From assembly GCA_012728465.1 (NCBI GenBank), contig JAAYFB010000059.1, positions 1 through 13,394 of the forward strand: 13,394 bases of DNA, written 5' to 3'. Shown here piece after piece: positions 744 through 13,010 of the stretch. The notes under the pieces are model-generated. The model was not told the DNA's origin. It saw only the letters and a program-made list of their open reading frames with translations, and made no database searches. The DNA comes from Proteiniphilum sp. Its GTDB lineage: Bacteria; Bacteroidota; Bacteroidia; Bacteroidales; Dysgonomonadaceae. The translations under genes were made by a program, and so were the position numbers. Positions within the stretch are counted from its first letter, which is position 1. Every line of letters starts with the position of its first letter.

Positions 744-1220
744 ATGTTTAAAGACAAAACAATTGTTTATACTTCTGGAACGTTTGATATGTTTCATTAC
801 AATCATCTCAGGATGATTAATTATGCAAGAAGTTTAGGAGATATTTTAATTGTGGGTGTTAGCACCGATGAGTTAGTAATGAGCTACAAAGATAAGCCTG
901 TAATACCATTTCAAGAGCGACTTCAGATTATTGAAGCACTTAAAACACCAGATATCGTGATTCCTCAACACACGCTTGATCATACTGAAATAGTTCAAAA
1001 ACTTAATATCGATGCCTTCATTGTTGGCGATGATTGGTGGGGAAAATATGACTATCTGAAAGATATGAATGTTGAGGTATTTTATTTCCCATATGGTGTA
1101 GGTGTTTCATCAACTAATATCAAAAAGTCAATTCATGAAACTTATGAATCAAAACTAAAATCTCAACGAAATACAAAGCCTGACACTATTCAAAAATTAA
1201 AAGAATCGATTAATGAATAA
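744..1220 (+). CDS. Glycerol-3-phosphate cytidylyltransferase-like nucleotidyltransferase
   Basis: The 158-residue protein belongs to the HxGH nucleotidyltransferase superfamily (TagD/TarD type). Such enzymes join CTP to a phosphorylated small alcohol, giving a CDP-alcohol and pyrophosphate in the cytosol. Visible motifs are GTFDMFHYNH at 12-21 (phosphate-binding loop and signature), IVGVSTDEL at 36-44, VGDDWWGKYD at 94-103 and GVSSTNIKKSI at 120-130. Two deviations stand out. The signature reads HYNH where HxGH is usual, and Tyr117 sits where the RTxGIST motif normally has Arg. The core, to about residue 130, has the usual length of the family, followed by a charged tail. The gene overlaps the next by 8 bases, so the two are probably translationally coupled. 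The family is clear; the substrate (glycerol-3-phosphate or another polyol phosphate) is inference from the neighbours. Confidence 0.85.
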   Translation: MFKDKTIVYTSGTFDMFHYNHLRMINYARSLGDILIVGVSTDELVMSYKDKPVIPFQERLQIIEALKTPDIVIPQHTLDHTEIVQKLNIDAFIVGDDWWGKYDYLKDMNVEVFYFPYGVGVSSTNIKKSIHETYESKLKSQRNTKPDTIQKLKESINE

Positions 1221-1941
1221 GTGCATACTAATAACGGGCGGTACTAAAGGTATTGGAAAATCTGTAGCCATAGAGATGGCTAAAAGTGGCTATGATTTAG
1301 TTCTTACTTATGCTTCAGACAACTTGTCAGCAGCAAAATTTAAGCAAGAGTTAAAAGATGACTACAACATATCTGTCCACATATTATCTGCGGATATTTC
1401 AGCAAAAGAATCGATAGATGTCATACACTCCTTTTTGATAGCGAAGCAAATAAAGCTAACGTCAATAATATTTAATGCTGGTATCACCTCGCGTGTTTCA
1501 TTCGAGGAGATTGAGATTGAGGATTGGGAGCGTGTTTTTTTCGCAAATGTTCACTTCCCTGTGTTTCTCACACAGCGACTATTGCCACAAATTGAAATTG
1601 GAGGAAATATCGTATTCACTGGCTCGTTGATGGGTGTATATCCTCATTCTGTATCATTAGCTTATGGTGTAACTAAGTCTGCAGTGCACTCTTTAGTGCA
1701 GAATATGGTTAAGTTTTTAGCTCCATATAAGATTCGTGTAAACGCCATTGCACCTGGATTTGTAGATACTGAATGGCAAAAAACAAAGCCTGCGGAGATA
1801 AGGAAGAGGATAGAAGATAAGATTGCACTCGAACGCTTCTGCGAACCCGATGAGCTAGCACAAATATATAAACTAATTGTAGAAAACAACTACCTTAACG
1901 GCGAGATAATTACTGTAAGTGGTGGTTACTCGTATAAATAA
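1213..1941 (+). CDS. Short-chain dehydrogenase/reductase (FabG-like)
   Basis: The 242-residue protein is a classical SDR oxidoreductase using NAD(P)H. The Rossmann signature TGGTKGIG is at 8-15 and NAG at 88-90. The catalytic set is Asn112, Ser138, Tyr151 and Lys155 (YGVTK), and the C-terminal VSGGY is typical of FabG-like members. It is complete, soluble and without a signal peptide. Its start overlaps the 3' end of the cytidylyltransferase gene, and the phosphatidyltransferase gene follows after 3 bases, so it almost certainly acts in the same pathway, perhaps reducing or oxidising the alcohol before or after CDP activation. Automatic tools would probably call it 3-oxoacyl-ACP reductase, but no fatty-acid gene is nearby, so I do not name it fabG. 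The substrate is unknown. Confidence 0.85.
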   Translation: MNKCILITGGTKGIGKSVAIEMAKSGYDLVLTYASDNLSAAKFKQELKDDYNISVHILSADISAKESIDVIHSFLIAKQIKLTSIIFNAGITSRVSFEEIEIEDWERVFFANVHFPVFLTQRLLPQIEIGGNIVFTGSLMGVYPHSVSLAYGVTKSAVHSLVQNMVKFLAPYKIRVNAIAPGFVDTEWQKTKPAEIRKRIEDKIALERFCEPDELAQIYKLIVENNYLNGEIITVSGGYSYK

Positions 1942-1944
1942 AAT

Positions 1945-2850
1945 ATGAAAAAGGAAGATAGGAAGCAGGACTATTTGAGTTCTCTCAAATCACTAGAAAC
2001 TGAAAACGTAATTGATCAGATCTTTTATCGACCTATAGGTTACAAAATAGCAAAATCACTACAATATACGGGTATAACACCAAACGCAATAACTATAATT
2101 TCAATATTTGTTGGTATTGCAGCTGGTGTATTTTGGTATTTCCCGTATAATATATCATTTGCTTTGTTAGGTATCTTGGCACTTATGTCGGCTAATATTC
2201 TTGACTGTGTGGATGGACAACTAGCTCGTCTAACGGGCATAAAGTCTGAAGTGGGAAGGATCCTTGATGGCTTTGCAGGTGATTTATGGTTCCTGTCAAT
2301 ATACATTGCACTGGGACATAGATTGTTTTTAAATTACCCCGATCTTAGCCCATGGCTATTTGTGCTTGTGGCTATTGCCTCGGGCATCTCGCATATGAAT
2401 CAAGCATCAATTACGGACTATTATAAAACATTGCACCTTTTCTTTATTAGTAAAGAGAAAGGAAAGGAGTTTGAGAGTTCGAAGAAAGTTGAAGAGAGAT
2501 ACAAGTTGCAAAAGCCTGGCATAAATAAGGTAATTACTTGGGGATATATAATTTATACACGCAGTCAGGAGAAAGGTACCCCTCAGCTTCAAGCAATGCT
2601 TTTGAGATTAAGAGACAAGTATGGTAATGAAATTCCCGAAGATGTTCGCGAAGATTTAAGAAAAGAGAGTCGAAAAATAATGCCACTAGTTGACTCTAAT
2701 ACCTTTAATGGTCGTTCGGCTATTCTTTTTACGGCAGTACTGTTTAATATTCCATGGCTATATTTCTTTTGGGAAATTATTGTACTTAATGTTATTAAGT
2801 ACATCATAAAGAGCAGACACGAAAGATTTTGTAGCAAGGTGGCAGTGTAG
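1945..2850 (+). CDS. CDP-alcohol phosphatidyltransferase family membrane enzyme
   Basis: The 301-residue protein has the CDP-alcohol phosphotransferase core. These membrane enzymes displace CMP from a CDP-alcohol, transferring the phospho-alcohol to an acceptor, using two Mg ions held by the motif D-x2-DG-x2-AR-x8-G-x3-D-x3-D. Here D87, D90, G91, A94, R95, G104 and D108 fit. The expected last Asp falls on Gly112 and an Asp follows at 113, one residue late. Hydrophobic segments lie near 45-65, 70-87, 112-127, 135-150 and 258-285. A long charged loop spans about 165-250, and the protein is larger than PgsA-type enzymes (about 180-200 residues). It is the third gene of the operon (3-base gap) and the likely user of the CDP-alcohol made by the first. 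A hairpin terminator follows. The family is firm; donor and acceptor are unknown. Confidence 0.85.
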   Translation: MKKEDRKQDYLSSLKSLETENVIDQIFYRPIGYKIAKSLQYTGITPNAITIISIFVGIAAGVFWYFPYNISFALLGILALMSANILDCVDGQLARLTGIKSEVGRILDGFAGDLWFLSIYIALGHRLFLNYPDLSPWLFVLVAIASGISHMNQASITDYYKTLHLFFISKEKGKEFESSKKVEERYKLQKPGINKVITWGYIIYTRSQEKGTPQLQAMLLRLRDKYGNEIPEDVREDLRKESRKIMPLVDSNTFNGRSAILFTAVLFNIPWLYFFWEIIVLNVIKYIIKSRHERFCSKVAV

Positions 2851-2879
2851 TAAAGGTGTTAACGCACTAATAGATATTA

Positions 2880-2916
2880 AAAAGCTCATTTATCGTATTG
2901 ATAGATGAGCTTTTTT
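2880..2916. terminator. Rho-independent terminator, probably bidirectional
   Basis: The arms AAAAGCTCATTTATC (2880-2894) and GATAGATGAGCTTTT (2900-2914) pair over 15 positions with one G-U, around a 5-base loop. A T run follows on the + strand, and an A run precedes, giving a T run on the - strand. It sits between convergent genes ending at 2850 and 2945 and can serve both. Confidence 0.9.
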
Positions 2917-2944
2917 GGTGTGATAATATAATATCTGACATCTA

Positions 2945-3325
2945 TTATTCATAGTTTGGTAGCTTCTTCACATCTTTGTTCTTTGATATTATCCTGCCAT
3001 TCTTATCATTTACCTTTACTTGCATAGTTGTAACTATTGTGCAACCATTAGTTTTGCGACACTTGCCTCTTCTTGTGGTTTTGTATTTAGTAGAGGATAC
3101 ATTCCACAGAGATTGTTCTGCATCATAGCTAATTTTCGGTTGATACACAGGTGTACGTCTTATTTCCTCTTCGGTAAGGTTTTTATCAATGTACAGTAGT
3201 CTTTTCTTCTTTACGATCTCTAGAACCTGAATGCTGTCTAAATTGCTTGTTGTCATTTGGTTTTGTGCTTTAGTCAATGTGGTGACTAAAGCTATAACTG
3301 CTATTAGTATTGCTGATTTTTTCAT
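2945..3325 (-). CDS. Small exported protein of unknown function
   Basis: The 126-residue protein starts with a clean signal peptide (Lys-Lys then a hydrophobic stretch, probable cleavage after about residue 20, TKA-Q), so it is probably periplasmic or secreted. The mature part is short and basic. It has a YDAEQSLWNV segment near 68-77, then a strongly basic stretch with two cysteines six residues apart (GKCRKTNGC), which could form a disulfide, and a C-terminal VNDKNGRIISKNKD turn. The strand-rich layout with a conserved-looking W-x-V recalls small periplasmic proteins of the PepSY/NTF2-like sort, but I recognise no family and assign no function. It is co-oriented with the META-domain genes but separated from them by a strong terminator whose T run ends 1-2 bases before its start codon. 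I see no obvious promoter in the gap. Confidence 0.7.
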   Translation of the reverse strand: MKKSAILIAVIALVTTLTKAQNQMTTSNLDSIQVLEIVKKKRLLYIDKNLTEEEIRRTPVYQPKISYDAEQSLWNVSSTKYKTTRRGKCRKTNGCTIVTTMQVKVNDKNGRIISKNKDVKKLPNYE

Positions 3326-3326
3326 A

Positions 3327-3374
3327 ATAAAAAAAGGAGCATTCGTACAGGTGATTTGCTGCTGAATGCTCCTT
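3327..3374 (-). terminator. Terminator after the ecotin-META gene (possible attenuator)
   Basis: On the - strand an 11-base perfect stem (AAGGAGCATTC at 3334-3344 pairing with 3364-3374) encloses a 19-base loop and runs straight into a T run (the A run at 3329-3335 on +). It ends the META-domain transcript. Because it lies between that gene and the next start at 3325, any read-through would feed the small exported-protein gene. Confidence 0.85.
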
Positions 3375-3395
3375 GAATAATTTTGCTTTCTATGT

Positions 3396-4250
3396 TTATT
3401 CTACCAATTCAAATATTGCCAATGGAGCCATTCTTGCTTTGTTTAGCGACAATGTTTTGCCATCAGTGGTTAAGTTATCAACTTTGGTAAGTACTTTAAG
3501 ATACTCTTGTTCAACATTTCCATCAGGACAAGCCATTATAGTTGACATACCTTTGCTAAATTTAATTTGAAATTCATTCTTTAGCTTATAACCTAAGTTT
3601 AGATTGTTGCAACCTGCTTTAGCCTCTGCTCGACTTTTGTCTGAATGTAACACTAAGTAGTGTGTGTCAGCTGATCCTTCAATCTTCTTTCCGTTTAGCT
3701 GTACAAGTTTCCAACGTTTGTTTTCTACTTTAGTTTCAGCTACTTCTGCTTCAGCTGGTTTAAAACCATTTTGTGCGGAAAACATTTTTTTGCCTGCACT
3801 CCATATTGTGTACTTCACTTCCAAATCTTTTGGAACATAAACAACAATTGGCAATCTGCTATTATAGTTAACGGTCATAGGTTGTAAGTGGATAAATTGT
3901 TTTGTTAATTTACCATCAGGGCAAGCCATCATTGTGCTACCTACGTTTCCGCTAGTTTCTGCTACATAGTAGGTATAACCCCAGCCATCTAGGTTTTTTT
4001 CCTCAATTGTTCCTCCCATAAAGTGTCGGTTGCAATCAACCATTTGAGTTTTTCCTACAAGTATTTCTATTTTGTAGTTAGCCTCATTCTTCTTTGCAGG
4101 CACTTTTATAAATACTTGTTTAAACCCATGTTTTGGTGCTGGAAACATCTCAATTTCCTTCGCTACATTTGCATTCTTTTGAGCGAATAACATGTTCGTT
4201 GTTGAAACCAATAAGAAAGCAAATGCTAATGTAAATAATGATTTTCTCAT
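3396..4250 (-). CDS. Exported ecotin-META domain fusion (predicted serine protease inhibitor)
   Basis: The 284-residue protein has a signal peptide (about 1-23, LFA-Q), an ecotin domain (about 30-151) and a META/HslJ domain (about 179-282). Ecotin is a dimeric periplasmic inhibitor of trypsin-fold serine proteases. Matches to E. coli ecotin, from memory, include VDCN (71-74), NLDGWGYTYYV (86-96), the reactive loop GSTMMACPDGK (104-114), YNSRLPIVVYVP (129-140) and VKYTIW (145-150). Both disulfide cysteines are present (Cys73, Cys110). By alignment P1 is Met107 and P1' is Met108, as in the broad-specificity E. coli protein. The META part starts at RWKLVQLNGK and carries Cys214, Cys241 and MACPDGNVEQEY. 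E. coli ecotin ends near where META begins, so META extends the dimerisation arm. It lies 27 bases after the NlpE-META gene, probably in one operon. Domain identities are firm; inhibitory activity is inferred from the conserved loop. Confidence 0.88.
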   Translation of the reverse strand: MRKSLFTLAFAFLLVSTTNMLFAQKNANVAKEIEMFPAPKHGFKQVFIKVPAKKNEANYKIEILVGKTQMVDCNRHFMGGTIEEKNLDGWGYTYYVAETSGNVGSTMMACPDGKLTKQFIHLQPMTVNYNSRLPIVVYVPKDLEVKYTIWSAGKKMFSAQNGFKPAEAEVAETKVENKRWKLVQLNGKKIEGSADTHYLVLHSDKSRAEAKAGCNNLNLGYKLKNEFQIKFSKGMSTIMACPDGNVEQEYLKVLTKVDNLTTDGKTLSLNKARMAPLAIFELVE

Positions 4251-4277
4251 AAGATTGTTATTTTGTATTTTATCTGA

Positions 4278-5102
4278 TTATTCTTCTATTACTAATTTGA
4301 ATTTAGCTAATGGTGCCATTCTAGCTTTGTTTAGCGTTAGTGTTTCACCATCTGTAGAAAGATTATCAACTGTGTTTAATACTTCCATATACTCTTGCTC
4401 AATATTTCCATCTGGGCAAGCCATTAATGTCATCATACTTTGTTTGAAATTAATACTAAGCTCTTTTTTAATTTTGTATGAAACGTTTATTAAGTTGCAG
4501 TTTACTTTGGTGTGAGCCACTCTTTCTTTCGAATCGAAGATTAGATAGTAGTTTTCAGGATTGCTGTTCTCAATAGCTTTGCCATTAAGTTCTATTAATT
4601 GCCATTTTTTATCTTCTACCGTAAAGTTACCCTCTTTTGTAAGAATATAAAAGTTCTCTAGCTCTCCTTCTATTTTGTTACCCTCCATATCTAAATATCT
4701 AACACTGTTCTCTTCTATTTTAAAGAATGGTGATCTGCTTCCTTCAGCAATTCCTTCTAGTTTAATGCTGTTGCCATCTTCCTGCCACACGAACTTTCCC
4801 TCTATTGTTTCGGACATAGAGTCTTTTACTCCCATGTAGCTAGTAGTTAATTTATAGGTGCCATCTTCGTTGATTATTAGCTCTGTTTCGATACCTTCGC
4901 AATCAGCACATGGCAAAACGCCAGAGTATATTCCCGACCAATCTAGTGAGTTCTTTGATGTGTGTTCATCTTTTAATTCTTGTGATATTTCGGTAGAATT
5001 GGTAGAATCTTTAGAGTTGCCTTGACTTTTGTTAGTACAAGCATAAGTTGTCGATATTACTACAGCAATAACTGTAAGTAGTAGTTTTAAATTTCTTTTC
5101 AT
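4278..5102 (-). CDS. NlpE-like / META-domain lipoprotein
   Basis: The 274-residue protein has a lipoprotein-type signal peptide ending in TTYAC, so Cys22 is the likely lipidated residue. The residues after it (TNKSQ) lack the acidic surface-export signal of Bacteroidota lipoproteins, which suggests a periplasm-facing position. A Ser/Thr/Lys-rich linker leads to an NlpE N-terminal-like domain (about 54-155) with WSGIYSGVLPCADCEGIET, containing the CxxC pair Cys65/Cys68 typical of the copper-responsive NlpE family. A META/HslJ domain (about 166-272) follows, with Cys202, Cys229 and MACPDGNIEQEY. This META domain is 35/45 identical to that of the downstream ecotin-META protein over the last stretch from MACPDG, pointing to duplication. 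NlpE relatives act in envelope-stress and copper responses; the role here is unproven. It is the first gene of a two-gene operon. Confidence 0.85.
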   Translation of the reverse strand: MKRNLKLLLTVIAVVISTTYACTNKSQGNSKDSTNSTEISQELKDEHTSKNSLDWSGIYSGVLPCADCEGIETELIINEDGTYKLTTSYMGVKDSMSETIEGKFVWQEDGNSIKLEGIAEGSRSPFFKIEENSVRYLDMEGNKIEGELENFYILTKEGNFTVEDKKWQLIELNGKAIENSNPENYYLIFDSKERVAHTKVNCNLINVSYKIKKELSINFKQSMMTLMACPDGNIEQEYMEVLNTVDNLSTDGETLTLNKARMAPLAKFKLVIEE

Positions 5103-5212: not shown

Positions 5213-5244
5213 TGAAAAGGTCCGAACAGGCATTGTTCAGACCT
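5213..5244 (-). terminator. Terminator after metF
   Basis: On the - strand AGGTCTGAAC (5244-5235) pairs with GTTCGGACCT (5227-5218), 10 positions with one G-U, around a 7-base loop, followed by TTTT. It lies about 40 bases after the metF stop. Confidence 0.8.
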
Positions 5245-5281: not shown

Positions 5282-6232
5282 TTAATAAACCTCTTTAGCA
5301 ATCCTATATATGCTTTCTGTTGCTCCAAGTGCGTAGTAATGAATGCCGGGTACTCCGTTTTCAATAAGTTCTCTGCTTTGCATTGTGCACCATTCAATAC
5401 CTACTTCACGAGCATCATCATCAGTTTTACAATTGCGTAATTCTTTTTCTAAATCTGAAGGTATATCTGTTCTGAATATCTTAGGAAGAATACTTAACTG
5501 TCTTCTTGTATATATCGGCTTGATGCCAGGTACAATAGGAATAGTAATGCCTGCGTTACGACATTTTGCTACAAAGTCGAAATACTTTTGATTGTCAAAA
5601 AACATTTGAGTGACTAAGTATCCTGCTCCATTGTCTGCTTTTATTTTGGTGAAGTGTATTTCGGACTCCATGTTTGGCGACTCTTCATGCTTTTCAGGAT
5701 AGCATGCCATTCCATATGTAAATGGAACATCTGGAGCAGCTAGTTTATCTCCTTCTAGTCCAATTCCATTATTGAAATTATTTACCTGTTCTTGTAGCTC
5801 AGTTGCAAATTGATGCGAATCCATTTTTCTTTGCTCTGCATCAAGCTTGTTTGAGTCGCCACGTAATAGTAGTAAATCTGTAACTCCCAAGAATGAAAGA
5901 TCTATTAATGCATATTCAGTTTCTTCTTTAGTGAAGCCAAGTGATACAATATGTGGGACAGCTTTTATTCCATACTTGTTTTGTATTGCTGCTGCTATTG
6001 CCACAGATCCTGGACGCTTGCGTACGTTCACTTTGTGTATCACCCCATTTGAAACTTCTTTGTAAATATTTTCGCTATGATGCGTAGTGATATTTATATA
6101 TTTGGGATCAAACTCCTTTAAACGATCGATAGTATGGAAAACCTGTTTAATGCTTTTTCCTTTAAGAGGCGGAAGTATCTCAAATGAGAAAACAGGTTTC
6201 TGATTATCATTTATTATTTCTGATATTTTCAT
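5282..6232 (-). CDS. metF: Methylenetetrahydrofolate reductase
   Basis: The 316-residue protein reduces 5,10-methylene-THF to 5-methyl-THF with FAD, supplying the methyl group for methionine synthesis in the cytosol. Motifs include FSFEILPP at 15-22 (Glu18, the catalytic Glu position), LLLRGD at 121-126 (Asp126, flavin-site Asp), GMACYPEKHEE at 174-184, YLVTQMFFD at 205-213 and GVPGIHYYALG at 293-303. The length fits the single-domain bacterial enzyme (about 290-320 residues). It follows rseP after 45 bases on the same strand and is closed by a hairpin terminator, so it is the last gene of the dxr-rseP-metF transcript unless an internal promoter exists. I see no SAM or cobalamin riboswitch before it. 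The identification is secure. Confidence 0.95.
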   Translation of the reverse strand: MKISEIINDNQKPVFSFEILPPLKGKSIKQVFHTIDRLKEFDPKYINITTHHSENIYKEVSNGVIHKVNVRKRPGSVAIAAAIQNKYGIKAVPHIVSLGFTKEETEYALIDLSFLGVTDLLLLRGDSNKLDAEQRKMDSHQFATELQEQVNNFNNGIGLEGDKLAAPDVPFTYGMACYPEKHEESPNMESEIHFTKIKADNGAGYLVTQMFFDNQKYFDFVAKCRNAGITIPIVPGIKPIYTRRQLSILPKIFRTDIPSDLEKELRNCKTDDDAREVGIEWCTMQSRELIENGVPGIHYYALGATESIYRIAKEVY

Positions 6233-6277
6233 TTTGAAAAAAATATTAGGATAAATGTAAAATACAGAGACCCTAAA

Positions 6278-7600
6278 TTATTTAAATATTGCACGGAATA
6301 TATCCATTCCATTTGCATAAAGTACCAATCCAATTAGTAAAATCATACCAGCCATTTGTGCATATTCCATAAACTTTTCATTTGGTTTGCGTCCACTTAT
6401 CATCTCAAATAGTAAGAACAAAACGTGTCCACCATCCAATCCTGGTATTGGAAGTATATTCATAAATGCAAGTATTACTGATAAAAATGCAGTCATCATC
6501 CAAAACGAATGCCAGTTCCAAACAGCTGGGAAAAGGTTTCCTATTGTACCAAATCCACCTAGTGATGATGCTCCCTCCTTGGTAAATACATATTTAAATT
6601 GAGCAACATAGTCTTTCAGTGTTTGTATGCCCATCTTAATGCCTGCAGGGAATGATTCGAAGAAACCATATTTTTTAGTAACTATATCATATATTTGCCC
6701 TTCAGATTTTGCGTAGAATCCAAGTGTGCCCTCTGAGTTTACATTTACTGATGCTTCTTGTAGTTGACCATTTCTGTAGTATCCCACGAGAACTTCTTTA
6801 TCTTTGTTGTTTTGTAGTTGTTCTACTAGCTCGGAAAATGATGGTGTTGCAATGTTGTTAATCGATACAAGACTATCATTTGCTTGTAATCCTGCTTTTG
6901 CAGCATTGCCATCTTCAGCTAATTGATAAATAACTGCTGGCAGACGATAGGTTGCAAAACCCTCCTTGTTTTTGAGCAAGTTCTTCATCAAGTCTTCGTT
7001 CATTGAAAGAGTTGTCTCGATACCATTACGTAATACCTTAACCTCTTTGGCATCAGCAATGTCAAGTAGTGTGCTTACACCAAAACGCTCTAGCTCTTTG
7101 CCATCGGCAGATAAAAGGATGTCGCCATCCACAAATCCAGCATCCAAAGCTGCTTGGCTAAACTCCATTCCTTGTGTTACATTCTTAAGTGGAAGGTATG
7201 TATCATTCCACGTAAATAGAACCATAGAGTATATGGTGAAAGCCAATATTAAATTGAATACTACGCCACCAATCATCACCAAAAGTCGTTGCCACGATGG
7301 TTTTGATCTAAACTCCCATGGTTGCTCAGGTTGTGCCATTTGCTCTTTGTCCATTGATTCGTCAATCATTCCAGCAATTTTTACATATCCACCGAGTGGT
7401 AACCAACCTATACCATATTCTGTATCACTGTTTTTGGGTTTGTATTTGAATAGTGAGAAGCCTGGATTGAAAAAAAGATAAAACTTCTCAACTCGTATTT
7501 TGAATATCCTAGCAAACATGAAGTGTCCAAGTTCATGAATGACTACTAGTATTGATAAGCTGAGTATTAACTGTAGTGCTTTAATTAAAAAAGTTTCCAT
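6278..7600 (-). CDS. rseP: RIP zinc metalloprotease (site-2 protease)
   Basis: The 440-residue inner-membrane protease cuts transmembrane segments, classically of anti-sigma factors and signal-peptide remnants. The zinc-binding HELGH is at 22-26 in the first membrane helix, and the second active-site motif NILPIPGLDGGH is at 381-392 with the third zinc ligand, Asp389. Further hydrophobic helices lie near 105-130, 365-390 and 415-435. Two PDZ domains lie between (about 140-205 and 219-285), as in the E. coli RseP type. GYVKIAGM at 71-78 is the usual membrane-associated loop. The length fits the family. It begins 12 bases after the dxr stop, the dxr-rseP order common in many bacteria. Its substrate here (an anti-sigma factor is the usual guess) is not encoded in the window. 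Confidence 0.95.
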   Translation of the reverse strand: METFLIKALQLILSLSILVVIHELGHFMFARIFKIRVEKFYLFFNPGFSLFKYKPKNSDTEYGIGWLPLGGYVKIAGMIDESMDKEQMAQPEQPWEFRSKPSWQRLLVMIGGVVFNLILAFTIYSMVLFTWNDTYLPLKNVTQGMEFSQAALDAGFVDGDILLSADGKELERFGVSTLLDIADAKEVKVLRNGIETTLSMNEDLMKNLLKNKEGFATYRLPAVIYQLAEDGNAAKAGLQANDSLVSINNIATPSFSELVEQLQNNKDKEVLVGYYRNGQLQEASVNVNSEGTLGFYAKSEGQIYDIVTKKYGFFESFPAGIKMGIQTLKDYVAQFKYVFTKEGASSLGGFGTIGNLFPAVWNWHSFWMMTAFLSVILAFMNILPIPGLDGGHVLFLLFEMISGRKPNEKFMEYAQMAGMILLIGLVLYANGMDIFRAIFK

Positions 7601-7612
7601 TTATTATTTGTT

Positions 7613-8782
7613 TCAATTTATTGATTTAGATACCTCATGTGCTATAATACGAGATTCGGTATCAGTTTGTTTGTAATCGTCTAGTGTAGGTGCTGGGATA
7701 AAAACAGACTTTAGCATTGTTTGTTCAACTATGCTACTCATTTGTAGGAACCCAATTTTGTTTTGTAAAAATAATTCAACCGCTATTTCATTTGCTGCAT
7801 TTAAAATACATGGCATATTGCCACCTTCCTTAATAGCATTGTAGCAAAGTTGTAGGTTTTTAAATATTTCAGTGTTTGGTTTTTCGAAAGATAGTTCTGT
7901 GAGCTTAAAGAAATCAACAGGCTCTGTATTCAACGATAGTCTTTCGGGATATGATAAAGCATATTGTATAGGCATGCGCATATCGGGGTTGCTCAACTGC
8001 GCCATGATTGAGCAGTCGTTGAACTGAACCATTGAGTGTATGATGGATTGTGGATGCACCACAACTTCTATTTGAGATGGGCTGACATCAAATAGCCATT
8101 TTGCCTCTATCATCTCCAGTCCTTTGTTCATCATTGTCGAAGAGTCTATGGTTACTTTTGCACCCATATCCCAGTTGGGATGATTAAGAGCTTGTTCTCT
8201 AGTTACATTCTTTAGTTGCTCAATTGAGAAGTTTCGGAATGGACCACCAGATGCGGTAAGAAATATTTTGCTTATTTGGTTGTATCCCTCGCCGTTTAAG
8301 CATTGAAATATTGCTGAATGTTCAGAGTCAACAGGTAGGATAGGGGTTTTATTCTCCAATGCAAGTTTTGTAATGATGTCGCCCGCAACCACAAGAGTCT
8401 CTTTGTTTGCTAAGGCTATTGTCTTGCCAGAATTTATTGCAGCAATAGTTGGTTGTAATCCCGAAAAGCCAACCATAGCAGTTAGTACAATGTCAATCTC
8501 TGAATCTTGAACTACTTGCTCAATAGCATCAGAACCTACATAAATCTTTATTGGTAAATCTGACAAAGCATCTTTTAGCAATTCATACTTTTCGCTATTT
8601 GCAATTACTACAATCTCGGGTTTAAACTGGCGTGCTTGCTCTATTAGTTTTTCTACTTGATTGTTTGCCACAAGTGCATAGGCTTCGAAACGCTGTGGAT
8701 GTTGCGAAATAACATCAAGTGTTTGAGTACCGATGGAACCTGTGGAACCTAAAACTGCAATTTTTCTCTTACGATAATTCAT
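7613..8782 (-). CDS. dxr: 1-deoxy-D-xylulose 5-phosphate reductoisomerase
   Basis: The 389-residue enzyme converts 1-deoxy-D-xylulose 5-phosphate to 2-C-methyl-D-erythritol 4-phosphate with NADPH, the first committed step of the MEP isoprenoid pathway. The NADPH loop LGSTGSIG is at 11-18, ANKET at 125-129, and VDSEHSAIFQ at 151-160 supplies metal ligands Asp152 and Glu154. ASGGPFR is at 177-183, and HPNWDMGAKVTIDSS to NKGLE at 201-223 ends with the third ligand, Glu223. HPQSIIHSMV is at 243-252. All key residues are present and the length is normal. A good promoter lies about 20 bases before the start, and rseP follows after 12 bases. Confidence 0.97.
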   Translation of the reverse strand: MNYRKRKIAVLGSTGSIGTQTLDVISQHPQRFEAYALVANNQVEKLIEQARQFKPEIVVIANSEKYELLKDALSDLPIKIYVGSDAIEQVVQDSEIDIVLTAMVGFSGLQPTIAAINSGKTIALANKETLVVAGDIITKLALENKTPILPVDSEHSAIFQCLNGEGYNQISKIFLTASGGPFRNFSIEQLKNVTREQALNHPNWDMGAKVTIDSSTMMNKGLEMIEAKWLFDVSPSQIEVVVHPQSIIHSMVQFNDCSIMAQLSNPDMRMPIQYALSYPERLSLNTEPVDFFKLTELSFEKPNTEIFKNLQLCYNAIKEGGNMPCILNAANEIAVELFLQNKIGFLQMSSIVEQTMLKSVFIPAPTLDDYKQTDTESRIIAHEVSKSIN

Positions 8783-8808
8783 TAACTCTATAATTTATAC
8801 GGAAGTTG

Positions 8809-8836
8809 CAAAGATAGACAAAATCAGTTATCCCAA
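8809..8836 (-). promoter_or_regulatory. dxr: Bacteroidota-type promoter of dxr-rseP-metF
   Basis: On the - strand TTG (8836-8834), 17 bases and TATCTTTG (8816-8809) match the Bacteroidota pattern TTG / 17-23 / TAnnTTTG. Transcription would start around 8800-8803, leaving a leader of about 20 bases before the dxr ATG at 8782. This is the best promoter match in the window. Confidence 0.7.
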
Positions 8837-8858
8837 CAATCTAAAACTAATAGTAAAC

Positions 8859-9899
8859 TTATAATTGAGATGAAAAGTGTGCTATTATTTGTAGCATATT
8901 TTCAATATTGTGAACTTCTATTGATTGGCCTTGGTGCTGCACTGACCAAATATTTTGAGATTGATTGGTCTTTACAACGATTGGTGCATCATTAATAATG
9001 TGAAACCCTTTTCTCGATAAGGCCTTAGTGGTCCATCTTGCCATCAGACTGTTAGGATTTTCCACAATGGTAGTAACATGTTTGTCTAACTGGTTTTTTA
9101 CCACAAAGCTACCATACTCTTTATCAAAATCGTAGTTGGAGTGTGAAAAAACTGTGTCAAACGTACCTTCGAGTACCATATCTTCGGGCACACCCACTCT
9201 CACTCCATTTTGTTTCTCCATAAGCCATATCTTATCTGCCACTTGCATTGCAGTCTCAAGCTCATGAGTAGATATAAATATTGTTTTATTTGTATCTCGT
9301 GCTAGTTTTTGCAGAAGAAGAAGGATATTTATTCTGTTTGGCAAGTCTAGGTGCGAAGTAGGTTCATCTAATAGTATGATAGGGGTGTCTTGTGCTAGAG
9401 CTCTAGCTATAAATACTCGTTGACGTTCGCCATCTGATAGTTCTTGAATGTTCCTGTTTTCAAATCCTTCCAAATTGGTCATCTCAATTGATTGAGAAAT
9501 AATATCGTTATCATTTTCCGATAAGCTGCCTAGCCAACCTGTGTATGGATCACGTCCAATAGAAATTAGTTCTCTAACATTAAATGATGCCTCGGCACGT
9601 TGGTCGGTTAGCACTATAGATATTAGTTGTGCACGCTTTTTGGGTGTTATCTGTGATACATCTTCTCCATCAATTTCTATTTTTCCAGAAAGTATTGGCT
9701 GAAGCCACGACATAGAACGCAATAGTGTACTCTTACCACATCCATTTCGGCCAATTAAAGCAATTAGTTCGCCTTTGTTAGCCGTGAGATGAAGCTTGTC
9801 TTGCACCACCATCCTCTTTTTACCTACTTGATAACCTATTTGTAAGTCTTTGATTTGTAGAAAAGAGTTTGATGTGTGTGTTGCCAAATTGTTTGCCAT
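8859..9899 (-). CDS. ABC transporter ATP-binding protein, iron-chelate/heme/cobalamin uptake type
   Basis: The 346-residue ATPase resembles FecE/BtuD/FhuC-type subunits that power uptake through a BtuCD-like permease at the inner membrane. Walker A GRNGCGKST is at 50-58, the Q-loop Gln at 100, the signature LSDGERQ at 154-160, Walker B IILLDEP at 174-180 with Asp178 and Glu179, and the H-loop His212. The ATPase core ends near 250. About 95 residues follow with no motif I recognise, ending near VHNIENMLQIIAHF; similar long tails occur in Bacteroidota homologues as far as I recall. It starts 3 bases after the rimM stop, so it is co-transcribed with rimM. No permease, binding protein or TonB receptor gene is in the window, so its partner must be encoded elsewhere and its substrate is not determined. 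Confidence 0.85.
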   Translation of the reverse strand: MANNLATHTSNSFLQIKDLQIGYQVGKKRMVVQDKLHLTANKGELIALIGRNGCGKSTLLRSMSWLQPILSGKIEIDGEDVSQITPKKRAQLISIVLTDQRAEASFNVRELISIGRDPYTGWLGSLSENDNDIISQSIEMTNLEGFENRNIQELSDGERQRVFIARALAQDTPIILLDEPTSHLDLPNRINILLLLQKLARDTNKTIFISTHELETAMQVADKIWLMEKQNGVRVGVPEDMVLEGTFDTVFSHSNYDFDKEYGSFVVKNQLDKHVTTIVENPNSLMARWTTKALSRKGFHIINDAPIVVKTNQSQNIWSVQHQGQSIEVHNIENMLQIIAHFSSQL

Positions 9900-9902
9900 T
9901 TG

Positions 9903-10424
9903 TTACTCTATAAGTCCTTCAGGTAGTTCTAGATAAATAGTTTTGGTCTCTTCATCAATACTTGTAATGAAGTCCTCGGTGGCAGGTATTAGGTTCTCTT
10001 CGCCATCTTTTTCTACCACAAATAGAATGTTAATTGTGGAGTTATCAATATCAACTATTTTTCCAATATTGTTGTTGTTATGGTCAATAATGGTGTATCC
10101 CACAAACCAGTCCCAGTCAAAGGGCTTGTCGTCTTTATCTATTTCGGGCATTTCGCTTTTGAGAATGTAAATATCAATATTTGAGTACTTTGATGCTTCT
10201 TCTTGGCTGTCTATATCTTCAAACTTCACTTTTCCTCGAGTATCAGTCATAAAGTTGATTTCCTCTATCATGAATGGTACAAATATTGATTCGATATCCA
10301 TAAAGTAAAAATCAACGTCAATATCTGTATATTCGGGTTTGTCGTAAAGTAAAACTATTTCGCCTTTTATGCCGTGAGACTTTTGAAGCTTCCCAATTTT
10401 ATATACACTCTCTTTAGTAATCAT
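9903..10424 (-). CDS. rimM: 16S rRNA processing / 30S maturation factor RimM
   Basis: The 173-residue protein helps late 30S assembly by binding the S19 / 16S rRNA head region. The N-terminal RimM barrel (about 8-90) has the signature GKLQKSHGIKGEI at 11-23, and the C-terminal PRC-barrel (about 102-170) has WFVGYTIID and LIPATEDFI. The length is normal. It is unusually acidic for an RNA-related protein, common in this phylum's RimM as far as I recall. It lies 16 bases after the DUF4290 gene and 3 bases before the ABC ATPase gene, so the three form an operon. The identification is secure. Confidence 0.93.
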   Translation of the reverse strand: MITKESVYKIGKLQKSHGIKGEIVLLYDKPEYTDIDVDFYFMDIESIFVPFMIEEINFMTDTRGKVKFEDIDSQEEASKYSNIDIYILKSEMPEIDKDDKPFDWDWFVGYTIIDHNNNNIGKIVDIDNSTINILFVVEKDGEENLIPATEDFITSIDEETKTIYLELPEGLIE

Positions 10425-10440
10425 ACTTATGTTTGTAAAC

Positions 10441-11055
10441 TTATCTTTTGTTGTTTCTTTTTGAGCGAACTATTCTTACATTTTTTCTTTTAGAAGTTGG
10501 TGCATTTGTACTAACTTTTATGCTTGAAATAGTAAAAGTATTTGGGTCTAAGTTTATTTTACCTTTCGAAAAATCTCTCAGGTCATCTATTATCTTAGCA
10601 TCGTCAATATCTTTGTTCCACTGTGTGTATGATCTTTTCATTTGCACAGCAATTTGCGAAATAAGTTGATCGCGTTTGCCACCCTCTTCCATGTCAGCAG
10701 CTATGTCAATCATCTTTTCAAGCAATTTGCCATAATGCTTAAATCTCATTTTACCTTTGTTATATTCCATCTTGCCTGGACGGGTGTAGAGATCTTCTTC
10801 CGTAATCACTTCGTAGGGATAATCGATATCTAGTTTGAAGTCTGACATTATGGCCAAATGATCCCACAGTATATGTTTGAAATCATTTACGTCACGTAGG
10901 TGAGGAAACATGTTACCCATAATATCCACCACGGTGTTTGCACATTTTTTACGCTCCTCTCTATCTTCGATAGTAAGGCAGTGATTAACCATGTTTTGGA
11001 TATTACGCCCATAGTCGGGCATCGATAATTTTTTAAGTTGAGTGTTATATTTCAT
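10441..11055 (-). CDS. DUF4290 domain protein
   Basis: I place the start at 11055, giving 204 residues beginning MKYNTQLKKL, because DUF4290 proteins begin this way and the 25 codons upstream (possible start 11130) show no conserved features. The conserved part includes MPDYGRNIQNMV, the helix with IMGNMFPHLRD and FKHILWDHLAIMS, and DIDYPYEV, followed by a predicted helical region and a Lys/Arg-rich tail (NVRIVRSKRNNKR) that could contact nucleic acid. It lacks a signal peptide and membrane helices, so it is cytosolic. The family is confined, to my knowledge, to Bacteroidota and usually sits beside murA and rimM; rimM is here, murA is not. The function is unknown. Confidence 0.85.
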   Translation of the reverse strand: MKYNTQLKKLSMPDYGRNIQNMVNHCLTIEDREERKKCANTVVDIMGNMFPHLRDVNDFKHILWDHLAIMSDFKLDIDYPYEVITEEDLYTRPGKMEYNKGKMRFKHYGKLLEKMIDIAADMEEGGKRDQLISQIAVQMKRSYTQWNKDIDDAKIIDDLRDFSKGKINLDPNTFTISSIKVSTNAPTSKRKNVRIVRSKRNNKR

Positions 11056-11266
11056 TTTTGTTTTTATGTTTTGTTCTTTATTTAAATACGCATCTAATGA
11101 TAGCAATGCATATGATTGCTTGTATTGCAACTTTGTAAATAGTTATGTTTGTTGAAAATAAGTATAAGCCCATAGGCTGCAAGAGGTAGCATCCTAACTA
11201 TAGCTATCGTAGCAAAGAGTAAAGATAATACTTTTTTGTGAATTATTTTAAACGTAGTGACTTTAA
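11056..11266. other. Intergenic region upstream of the DUF4290 operon
   Basis: These 211 bases hold no supported gene and no clear terminator for the glucosaminidase gene ending at 11267. They should contain the promoter for DUF4290-rimM-ABC. The only candidate I see is TACTCTTTG on the - strand (11221-11213), which has three rather than two bases between TA and TTTG and no clear -33 box. Confidence 0.4.
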
Positions 11267-12193
11267 TTACCTTAATTTCAACTTATCACCCTCTTCGGGT
11301 ACATATTTATAGCTTTTTTTATTTAGTCTGTATAACTCGCGAAGCCTGATGCCATATTTTTGAGATATGCTGTGCATCGATTCTCCAATTTGTATCACAT
11401 GACTATAGTATGGTTCATCGGCTCTTGCCTTTTTCTTTTGAAAATATACAATATCACCTTCAAATAATGGGAATCCTGCTTCCACATCATTATATTTTAG
11501 AAGATGCTTTTCTTTGAAGCCAAACTCATTAGCTATAGATCCGTAAGTGTCACCATTTACTGCTATTACATACACAAGATCATGAGTTTTGTATGGCTGG
11601 TGTGTCCAATTTATGTTGCTATAATCTGGCTTGGCAGTCGAGTTACTACCTTTGTAGCTTTTATTGTCGTACTTATATAGCTCATAATCTTCAATCAGTT
11701 TTATAAGTTTGTTAGCATAGGCTCTGTCGGTAGCATAGCCCGACTTTTGCAATCCTCGTGCCCAACCCATGTAGTCGGTGATGCGTAGCTTAAATAGGTC
11801 TCTGTAGCGAATATTGTTTGCTAGAAACTGTGCATGATCTTCATACGAATCTTCCACTCGCTTATACTTCCTAAAGCAATCATTGGGTGAGTCATCGGCT
11901 GCATATGCTTTTTCTCCACGCCATCCATTGTGGCATTTGATGCCAAAGTGATTGTTGGAGCGTTTTGACAAATCACTCATACCTGCGCCCGACTCTAGCA
12001 AGCCTTGCGCAAGAGTGATGGATGCTGGAATTTTATAGTCAGCCATGTTTCGCTGAGCAATTGGTGCATAGGTGTTTATATAATTGTTATAAATTCTCAG
12101 TCTAGTCTGTCCTAATGCTTCGTTTGGTACAATTATTGTTCCGATAAGGATTAGTAGAGTAAAAATATATCTATATTTGTGATTGTAATTCAT
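11267..12193 (-). CDS. Exported glucosaminidase with two LysM domains
   Basis: The 308-residue protein is a predicted peptidoglycan hydrolase. A signal peptide (about 1-29, ALG-Q) is followed by a glucosaminidase domain of the FlgJ/GH73 type (about 40-172). This has ASITLAQGLLESGAG with catalytic Glu67, NNHFGIKC and RKYKRVEDSYEDHAQFL, which cleaves the glycan strand next to N-acetylglucosamine. A spacer leads to two C-terminal LysM domains (about 207-251 and 264-307), each with the typical 'V-x-x-G-(D/E)-(T/S)-x-x-(S)-I' start, which bind peptidoglycan. Many Bacteroidota carry one copy as a housekeeping autolysin. It diverges from cdd with only 36 bases between start codons. TATCTTTG on the - strand at 12259-12252 would place its promoter inside the first codons of cdd. 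Confidence 0.92.
   Translation of the reverse strand: MNYNHKYRYIFTLLILIGTIIVPNEALGQTRLRIYNNYINTYAPIAQRNMADYKIPASITLAQGLLESGAGMSDLSKRSNNHFGIKCHNGWRGEKAYAADDSPNDCFRKYKRVEDSYEDHAQFLANNIRYRDLFKLRITDYMGWARGLQKSGYATDRAYANKLIKLIEDYELYKYDNKSYKGSNSTAKPDYSNINWTHQPYKTHDLVYVIAVNGDTYGSIANEFGFKEKHLLKYNDVEAGFPLFEGDIVYFQKKKARADEPYYSHVIQIGESMHSISQKYGIRLRELYRLNKKSYKYVPEEGDKLKLR
12172..12179 (+). promoter_or_regulatory. cdd: Candidate -7 box for cdd
   Basis: TATATTTG fits TAnnTTTG, about 50 bases before the cdd ATG, and lies within the first codons of the divergent glucosaminidase gene. The -33 region (TTAG near 12151) is only a weak match. Confidence 0.4.
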
Positions 12194-12229
12194 TATAATA
12201 GTAATAATATAAATATCAATTTTGAACCT

Positions 12230-12709
12230 ATGAAAGAAATAAATTTAACCACAAAGATAAGAGTTTATCTAATAGATGAATGTACTGATGTAGAAAAAAA
12301 GTTAATAGAGGCAGCAAAGCTTGCCACAAAGGATGCTTACGTGCCTTACTCAAACTTTAGTGTGGGTGCCGCCCTTTTGTTGGGCAATGGAGAGATAGTA
12401 ACAGGAAATAATCAAGAGAATGCTGCCTATCCATCAGGATTGTGTGCCGAGCGCACTGCTGTATTCTTTGCAAATGCCAACTATCCCGACCAAAATATTG
12501 AAGCCATAGCCGTTGCTGCACACTATAAGGGTGAGTTTACAAAAGATGTTATCACTCCATGTGGTGCTTGCCGTCAGGTGTTGCTCGAGGTGGAGAATAG
12601 ATATAAAAAACCAATGAAGATATTGCTTTATGGTGGCAACGATGAGGTGTATCAGCTTGATAGCATCAAGGAGTTACTGCCATTGAGCTTTGGCGAAGAG
12701 ATGCTGTAA
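12230..12709 (+). CDS. cdd: Cytidine deaminase
   Basis: The 159-residue enzyme deaminates cytidine and deoxycytidine to (deoxy)uridine in pyrimidine salvage. I use the ATG at 12230 (MKEINLTTKI). An in-frame ATG at 12179 would overlap the divergent gene's start and add an Asn-rich leader unlike the family. Motifs are YVPYSNFSVGAAL at 37-49, CAE at 72-74 (zinc ligand Cys72 and catalytic Glu74) and PCGACRQ at 110-116 (zinc ligands Cys111 and Cys114). Three Cys ligands and this length mark the homotetrameric type (as in B. subtilis) rather than the E. coli dimer. The membrane protein gene follows after 28 bases on the same strand and may be co-transcribed. Confidence 0.95.
   Translation: MKEINLTTKIRVYLIDECTDVEKKLIEAAKLATKDAYVPYSNFSVGAALLLGNGEIVTGNNQENAAYPSGLCAERTAVFFANANYPDQNIEAIAVAAHYKGEFTKDVITPCGACRQVLLEVENRYKKPMKILLYGGNDEVYQLDSIKELLPLSFGEEML
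12252..12259 (-). promoter_or_regulatory. Candidate -7 box for the glucosaminidase-LysM gene
   Basis: On the - strand TATCTTTG matches TAnnTTTG exactly, about 60 bases before the start at 12193, inside codons 8-10 of cdd. No good -33 element is seen 17-19 bases further upstream. Confidence 0.4.
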
Positions 12710-12737
12710 TTTATTCATATAAAATAGCTCTGTAGTT

Positions 12738-13010
12738 ATGACAATTCAAAACAAAAGGCTAGTGTACATTTTGGCAGCAGTTCCTATTATGCTGCTAATA
12801 CCATTGATTGCAATGCAATTTAGCAATGCAATTGTTTGGAGCGTGTCAGACTTCGCAATTATGGGGGCTTTATTATTAGGAGCGGGCTTGCTTTGCGAGC
12901 TTGTACTTAGAAAATCAAAGAGCCGCAAAGGCAAAATATTGCTCTGTGGAGCTGTACTATTTGTTTTTTTGCTTATTTGGGCCGAACTAGCCGTTGGAAT
13001 ATTTGGTTAG
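12738..13010 (+). CDS. Small three-helix membrane protein
   Basis: The 90-residue protein is almost all hydrophobic, with helices near 8-27, 35-56 and 66-88. A positively charged loop (LRKSKSRKGK) between helices 2 and 3 predicts that loop to face the cytosol. The C-terminal WAELAVGIFG is a motif I have seen in many short, uncharacterised bacterial inner-membrane proteins. I know no function for them. It has no signal peptide beyond the first helix and no enzymatic motif. It follows cdd by 28 bases without a terminator between, and a long hairpin lies 13 bases after the stop. Confidence 0.75.
   Translation: MTIQNKRLVYILAAVPIMLLIPLIAMQFSNAIVWSVSDFAIMGALLLGAGLLCELVLRKSKSRKGKILLCGAVLFVFLLIWAELAVGIFG

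Follow-up and report, generated by a model that had tools for sequence, protein, structure and literature searches.

The systems closest to the locus analysed here are the serine-protease inhibitor ecotin (PF03974; 1ecy, 1azz, 1ifg), the HslJ/META family (PF03724; 2kts, 2la7), the NlpE-META proteins of Bacteroidota, the tandem ecotins of the same bacterial family, and potempin E of Tannerella (8ehc, 8ehd). In one review, the 50s and 80s loops are given as the primary binding site of ecotin (PMC9904509). For META proteins, two reports describe an HslJ of A. baumannii with two META domains and one DUF4377, reported to act in defence against peroxide (PMC11724541), and META1 of Leishmania, which has been linked to secretion and whose fold has been likened to the MxiM pilotin (PMC3270026). 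Among the matches listed in our search of the open-access literature, none described an ecotin-META fusion or an inhibitory META, and the words "fusion" and "tandem" are absent from the ecotin review.

The window, a stretch of 13,394 nucleotides from a Proteiniphilum sp. assembly (contig JAAYFB010000059.1), carries one gene that joins the two families. Its product shares with ecotin the whole domain, the cysteine pair, the Met P1-P1' bond and the sequence of the C-terminal arm, and differs from it in having a second domain behind the arm; it shares with HslJ/META the profile and the predicted fold, and differs in that META is here fused to an inhibitor. The loop of this META domain, STIMACPD, is nearer to the STMMACPD of ecotin than to the TRMMCANP of 2kts. 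An NlpE-META protein, with a META domain of the same subclade and NlpE rather than ecotin as N-terminal partner, is encoded by the neighbouring gene. Tandem ecotins are also two-domain inhibitor chains, mostly with one hydrophobic and one basic P1, and their second domain is ecotin where here it is META. The gene and its parts are as follows.

3396..4250, minus strand: ecotin-META fusion gene, 284 aa (open reading frame, Pfam profiles, alignment, structure model matches)
4182..4250, minus strand: probable signal peptide, residues 1-23, before QKNA (sequence read by eye)
3795..4154, minus strand: ecotin domain, residues 33-152 (PF03974, 5.3e-46; same place in the whole-genome search)
4026..4037, minus strand: ecotin 50s loop, D72-C73-N74-R75 (alignment A1)
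3915..3938, minus strand: ecotin 80s reactive loop, S105-D112, with P1 Met107 (alignment to solved ecotins; column counts)
3732..3764, minus strand: linker, residues 163-173, behind the conserved C-terminal arm (variable among aligned fusions; pLDDT <50 at 169-172)
3411..3731, minus strand: META domain, residues 174-280 (PF03724, 1.8e-22)
3606..3611, minus strand: META C214-N215, counterpart of ecotin C73-N74 (invariant in 17/17 A1 fusions; profile alignments)
3522..3545, minus strand: META loop S236-D243 (STIMACPD), counterpart of the ecotin reactive loop (profile alignments, column counts)

A sequence-only reading had proposed the fusion and named both domains, and both identities were borne out (PF03974, E 5e-46; PF03724, E 2e-22; structure model matches). 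The ecotin domain scores 156 bits against PF03974 (cut-off 22.2), spanning profile positions 2-122 of 122, and 196.8 against NF002987 (cut-off 162); the META domain scores 79.8 bits against PF03724 (cut-off 24). The structure model of the protein matches both families. The ecotin HMM match and the ecotin fold, on which that reading had staked its claim, are both present, and META modelled alone (mean pLDDT 87.3) forms an HslJ-type barrel. Alignment to solved ecotins likewise upholds the proposed reactive bond: it places P1 Met107 in the loop S105-D112, and the 50s- and 80s-loop cysteines, a putative disulfide, are present together with P1-P1'. D72, C73 and N74 are invariant in 17/17 fusions of alignment A1; P0001, which lies outside A1, has N at D72. 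The N-terminus has the signal-like stretch noted earlier and lacks a lipobox cysteine, both read directly from the sequence, and the protein is probably exported. The further claim, that META is attached precisely at the arm through which ecotin forms dimers, held in part: META does follow the C-terminal arm, but the arm itself is retained. The stand-alone relatives P0023, P0024 and P0026 stop at or shortly after ...GKKM..A, and the aligned fusions keep the same stretch and continue with a variable linker and then META. As aligned, META does not replace the arm of ecotin and is appended behind it via the linker.

Ecotin and META have a pattern in common, C-N ... [ST]-T-x-M-A-C-P-D. Two profiles built from separate sequences, one from 45 stand-alone ecotins and the other from 16 META domains, aligned with 95.1% probability (P 3.3e-8, 52 columns), the fixed CN, T and C of the META rows being partly by construction, as these rows were mostly chosen by motif expression. 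The META rows stem from genomes in the same class as Formosimonas; of the 23 loci L126-L148, those left out are L141 and L144 (neither cysteine), L138, L139, L143, L145 and L148; the ecotin set includes rows without a named source, and Dysgonomonas ecotin P0079 was removed from it. The real score of 51.5 compares with 9.4 for a reversed-profile control and was reached by 0/300 column shuffles and 1/300 eight-column block shuffles (0/200 and 2/200, respectively, for a Bacteroidota META set). Block shuffles retain 32.6 of the 51.5 on average, so one block accounts for most of the likeness and the co-linear CN for the remainder. As a control, NlpE profiles reached 0.3% against ecotin and 3.5% against META. 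When a META profile was run against 177,635 PDB sequences, two META chains were followed by eight ecotins (E 0.26-1.3) and by nothing else to E 10. In the Pfam search of stand-alone ecotins, META was matched by 8/51 and was the second commonest family, with a best E of 0.057 that four other families bettered. Judged by the reversed, shuffled and NlpE controls, the loop likeness of ecotin and META is probably real.

The ecotin HMM matched 0/36 META domains, and an ecotin profile run against the PDB retrieved no META chain up to E 10. Whole-domain homology of META and ecotin was unsupported in the fold lists of the META-only model, since neither the 50 fold matches shown nor the 50 Foldseek matches shown included an ecotin; those shown were HslJ, DUF4847, MxiM and lipocalin-like chains. 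In this model, T237-D243 is a coil between strand and helix. The spacing from CN to the loop is 20-22 residues in META versus 30-31 in ecotin, and the shorter spacing suggests that the 60s loop of ecotin is missing from META. The motif also occurs in META domains that are not fused to ecotin and may be structural. In L141 and L144 both cysteines are gone together, a joint loss that fits a disulfide in META. Ecotin's loop resembles those of pacifastin and other canonical inhibitors; the Pacifastin_I HMM touches this loop in one tandem ecotin with E 0.0012 and 19 bits, below the family's cut-off of 27.9, and it matched 1/51 stand-alone ecotins.

The P1 position was compared in 26 fusions, namely the window's protein and 25 of the 28 listed, without P0001 and the short P0022 and P0129. 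At ecotin P1 they have Met in 11, Leu in seven, Arg in five and Lys in three; at the META equivalent Met in ten, Arg in eight, Lys in four, and Ile, Leu, Glu and Asn once each, the window's own META having Ile. Neither P2 Thr nor P3' Cys varies in either domain, and P1' is Met in 26/26 META and 25/26 ecotin domains. By variability, the META P1-equivalent ranks 12th of 108 columns and ecotin P1 23rd of 120. A hydrophobic and a basic P1 are paired in 20/26 fusions and two basic ones in none (Fisher 0.002), a pairing that comprises only 2 independent contrasts, is not significant on the tree and is taken here as a hint only. In tandem ecotins, which are mostly close relatives, 46/48 pair a Met or Leu P1 with an Arg or Lys P1; the 48 are those with two readable loops among 52 candidates, and two of the remaining four, P0124 and P0125, are not tandem.

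Proteins with both Pfam domains, for which the sequence-only reading had suggested a search, number at least 21 among the best 120 of 631 matches, and at least 28, four of them also with DUF4377, among the best 120 of 2800 matches to a profile of 17 fusions. Fusions are 51-87% identical to the window's protein overall, those at 86-87% lying on other contigs; P0001 (99% identical, four differences) was not counted as independent. The source genome is the only one with a full-length match among 101 of the family and, with at most six candidates scored per genome, among 395 drawn from the phylum. Many close ecotins among the matches listed are without META, and relatives within the family have stand-alone (genus g7) or tandem ecotins. 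The earlier view of ecotins as stand-alone proteins proved too narrow: 10/61 genomes, four of them belonging to the genus of the window, show a pair of ecotin matches in frames of one length (tandem ecotins). L118:1483-2400, L114:934-1905 and P0130-P0171 are such ecotin-ecotin proteins of ~300 residues.

Other arrangements were also seen. Three proteins scanned have the order ecotin-DUF4377-META; P0122, P0123, P0124 and P0126 are ecotin-DUF4377-META and P0109 is DUF4377-ecotin. In P0180, P0185, P0188, P0190, P0195, P0197 and P0200, ecotin is followed by a ~120-residue region with FGAA..M, which gave no Pfam match in the two examples tried, and in L100:943-2001 by a ~180-residue region without any Pfam match. 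The partners of META elsewhere are NlpE, DUF4377, YscW, a beta-lactamase-type domain and META itself; its partners in L134 and L128 are a beta-lactamase-type (PF00144) protein and a YscW-like domain. If nothing but the architecture is new, it shows ecotin to be a module that Bacteroidota combine with META, with DUF4377, with a further ecotin and with unnamed domains.

The trees do not support a single fusion clade (p-AU 0.043 for META, 0.0056 for ecotin; 20 fusions, without P0121-P0126). Because the fusions are not one clade, the fusion would be old, or would have had several origins, or META was lost by stand-alone ecotins; repeated fusion and repeated loss are both possible. In the META tree, 20 fusion rows, 14 NlpE-META rows and L034, L036 and L049 group at 99/98, with 31 rows outside; many rows labelled "other" are also NlpE-META, and 8/9 further NlpE-META rows were left out because they failed the motif. 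Outside, the nearest META with a named source is L034 of a Saprospiraceae bacterium (63%), a likeness that fits, and does not prove, transfer between Bacteroidota groups. In the ecotin tree, the stand-alone L003 of genus g7 pairs with P0079 of Dysgonomonas hofstadii (98/91), which points to a host within or close to Dysgonomonadaceae (Bacteroidales). A recent local duplication from the NlpE-META neighbour was rejected, the two META domains of the window not being sisters (p-AU 2.7e-29).

The source assembly has 472 contigs and is 89% complete. Around the fusion gene lie the following features.

4278..5102, minus strand: NlpE-META gene, 27 bases upstream of ecotin-META (PF04170, 6.7e-26; PF03724, 2.5e-19)
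3334..3374, minus strand: hairpin and U run after the ecotin-META stop, likely terminator (-19.7 kcal/mol, z -5.3, 0/200 shuffles as good)
5218..5244, minus strand: terminator-like hairpin between the MTHFR-like gene and NlpE-META (pattern scan)

The spacing and the hairpins suggest that NlpE-META and ecotin-META are co-transcribed. The pattern scan found two terminator-like hairpins in the region versus 1.0 expected in shuffles, which is weak alone, and the hairpin at 3334..3374 is missing from its list. P0009, a fusion, and P0052, an NlpE-META protein, are on contigs of equal length, as are the stand-alone P0024 and the NlpE-META P0044; this hints, short of proof, that the ecotin/NlpE-META pair is also linked elsewhere.

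The contig belongs to the source genome, because its housekeeping proteins are most similar to those of the same genus. For the Dxr-like protein, identity is 74-79% with the nine genomes of the genus, 64-71% with most other rows of the family and 51-65% with rows of the order; for the MTHFR-like protein it is 74-80% within the genus. The order LysM, DUF4290, RimM, Dxr, RseP, MTHFR is kept, within stretch limits, in seven same-genus stretches; the ABC gene is additionally present in two of the syntenic stretches, and MTHFR-RseP-Dxr is also kept in one stretch of another genus. A mis-binned contig was rejected on this synteny and on the 74-80% identity of the two housekeeping proteins within the genus, which is mostly lower elsewhere in the family and order. 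Foreign base composition, which would have hinted at recent transfer, was not seen, GC having no step (0.351 for 744-5102, 0.366 for 5282-13010), and a chimeric gene is unlikely, P0002-P0006 (86-87% identical) carrying the same fusion. Ecotin-META, NlpE-META and the genes at 744-2850 had no match in the stretches of eight relatives (tblastn, E 1e-8), so the unit beyond the MTHFR-like gene is absent from their site; a false join between this unit and the MTHFR-like gene is possible.

We favour a model whereby the protein is a working ecotin serine-protease inhibitor with META as an added envelope module, and give it a probability of about 0.5. Judging from its intact loops, the ecotin head very probably works as an inhibitor of S1 proteases and, as known for the family, would bind S1-family proteases at two sites, probably as a dimer. 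META behind its linker need not obstruct the dimer arm, and it may act in the manner of HslJ, protecting the envelope or having a stabilising role. Made with the upstream NlpE-META protein, the fusion would form a two-gene envelope unit that the site of the eight relatives lacks. The varied partners of META elsewhere mean that it behaves as a portable module would, and we place most weight on the envelope because META proteins have been tied to peroxide defence and META1 to secretion. "Envelope module" is nevertheless a weak statement, and it leaves unexplained why the most conserved loop of META copies the primary binding loops of ecotin. In the source genome, the sole PF00089 match reads like a DegP/HtrA protease; the targets are therefore more likely outside the cell, and a role against outside proteases is plausible.

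The copied loop is the basis of a more tentative explanation, in which the ST-x-MAC loop of META, with a C214-C241 bond, would be a second canonical reactive loop, and a single chain would inhibit serine proteases of two kinds, as would be expected of a tandem ecotin. The independently built profiles meet over CN...STxMAC, the PDB search passes from META straight to ecotins, META is prominent in the Pfam search of stand-alone ecotins, and the matched loops are those given as the primary binding site in PMC9904509; moreover, the P1-equivalent varies amid fixed neighbours in both domains, and fusions and tandem ecotins alike tend to pair a hydrophobic with a basic P1. These points are offset by the empty reverse searches, the lack of ecotins among the matches shown for the META-only model, the four Pfam families with a better best E, and a profile score that comes mostly from one short block, as well as by the few independent contrasts behind the pairing, the close kinship of the tandem ecotins, the Ile in the window's own META, and the motif's presence in META unfused to ecotin. 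If the loop match is functional, the META/HslJ family gains a concrete test, protease binding via the T-x-M-A-C loop, and the fusion would be a naturally occurring inhibitor that combines two P1 specificities. We consider it unlikely that META/HslJ domains at large, which are widespread in the bacterial envelope, are hidden canonical serine-protease inhibitors whose lipocalin-like barrel presents the 50s and 80s loops but lacks the 60s loop, with the fusions as two-headed forms of complementary P1. Quite improbable, in our judgement, is that META modulates or tethers ecotin, by altering dimerisation or by docking it on the outer membrane or on the NlpE-META partner: META does lie directly behind the arm, and the META of the co-oriented neighbour belongs to the same subclade, but the arm is fully retained, no lipobox cysteine is present, the pair of META domains in the window are not each other's sisters and show no special matching, and many close ecotins do without META. 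The rarity of the fusion, with a sole full-length match among the 101 family and 395 phylum genomes, might suit a chance deletion that joined a META adding nothing; we hold this to be very improbable and largely refuted, as W180, C214, N215, T237 and C241 are invariant in 17/17 fusions and the T, M and C of the META loop are kept in 26/26, a conservation that points to selection.

Finally, we note two features on the far side of the fusion gene. Directly behind the terminator, positions 2945-3325 (minus strand) encode a 126-residue protein with a signal-like start, which had no Pfam or NCBIfam match and was found in 1/101 family genomes, its own. On the plus strand, at 744-2850, a cytidylyltransferase, a short-chain dehydrogenase and a CDP-alcohol phosphatidyltransferase are encoded in a row, an arrangement that resembles a pathway for phospholipid head groups or polyol-phosphate lipids.
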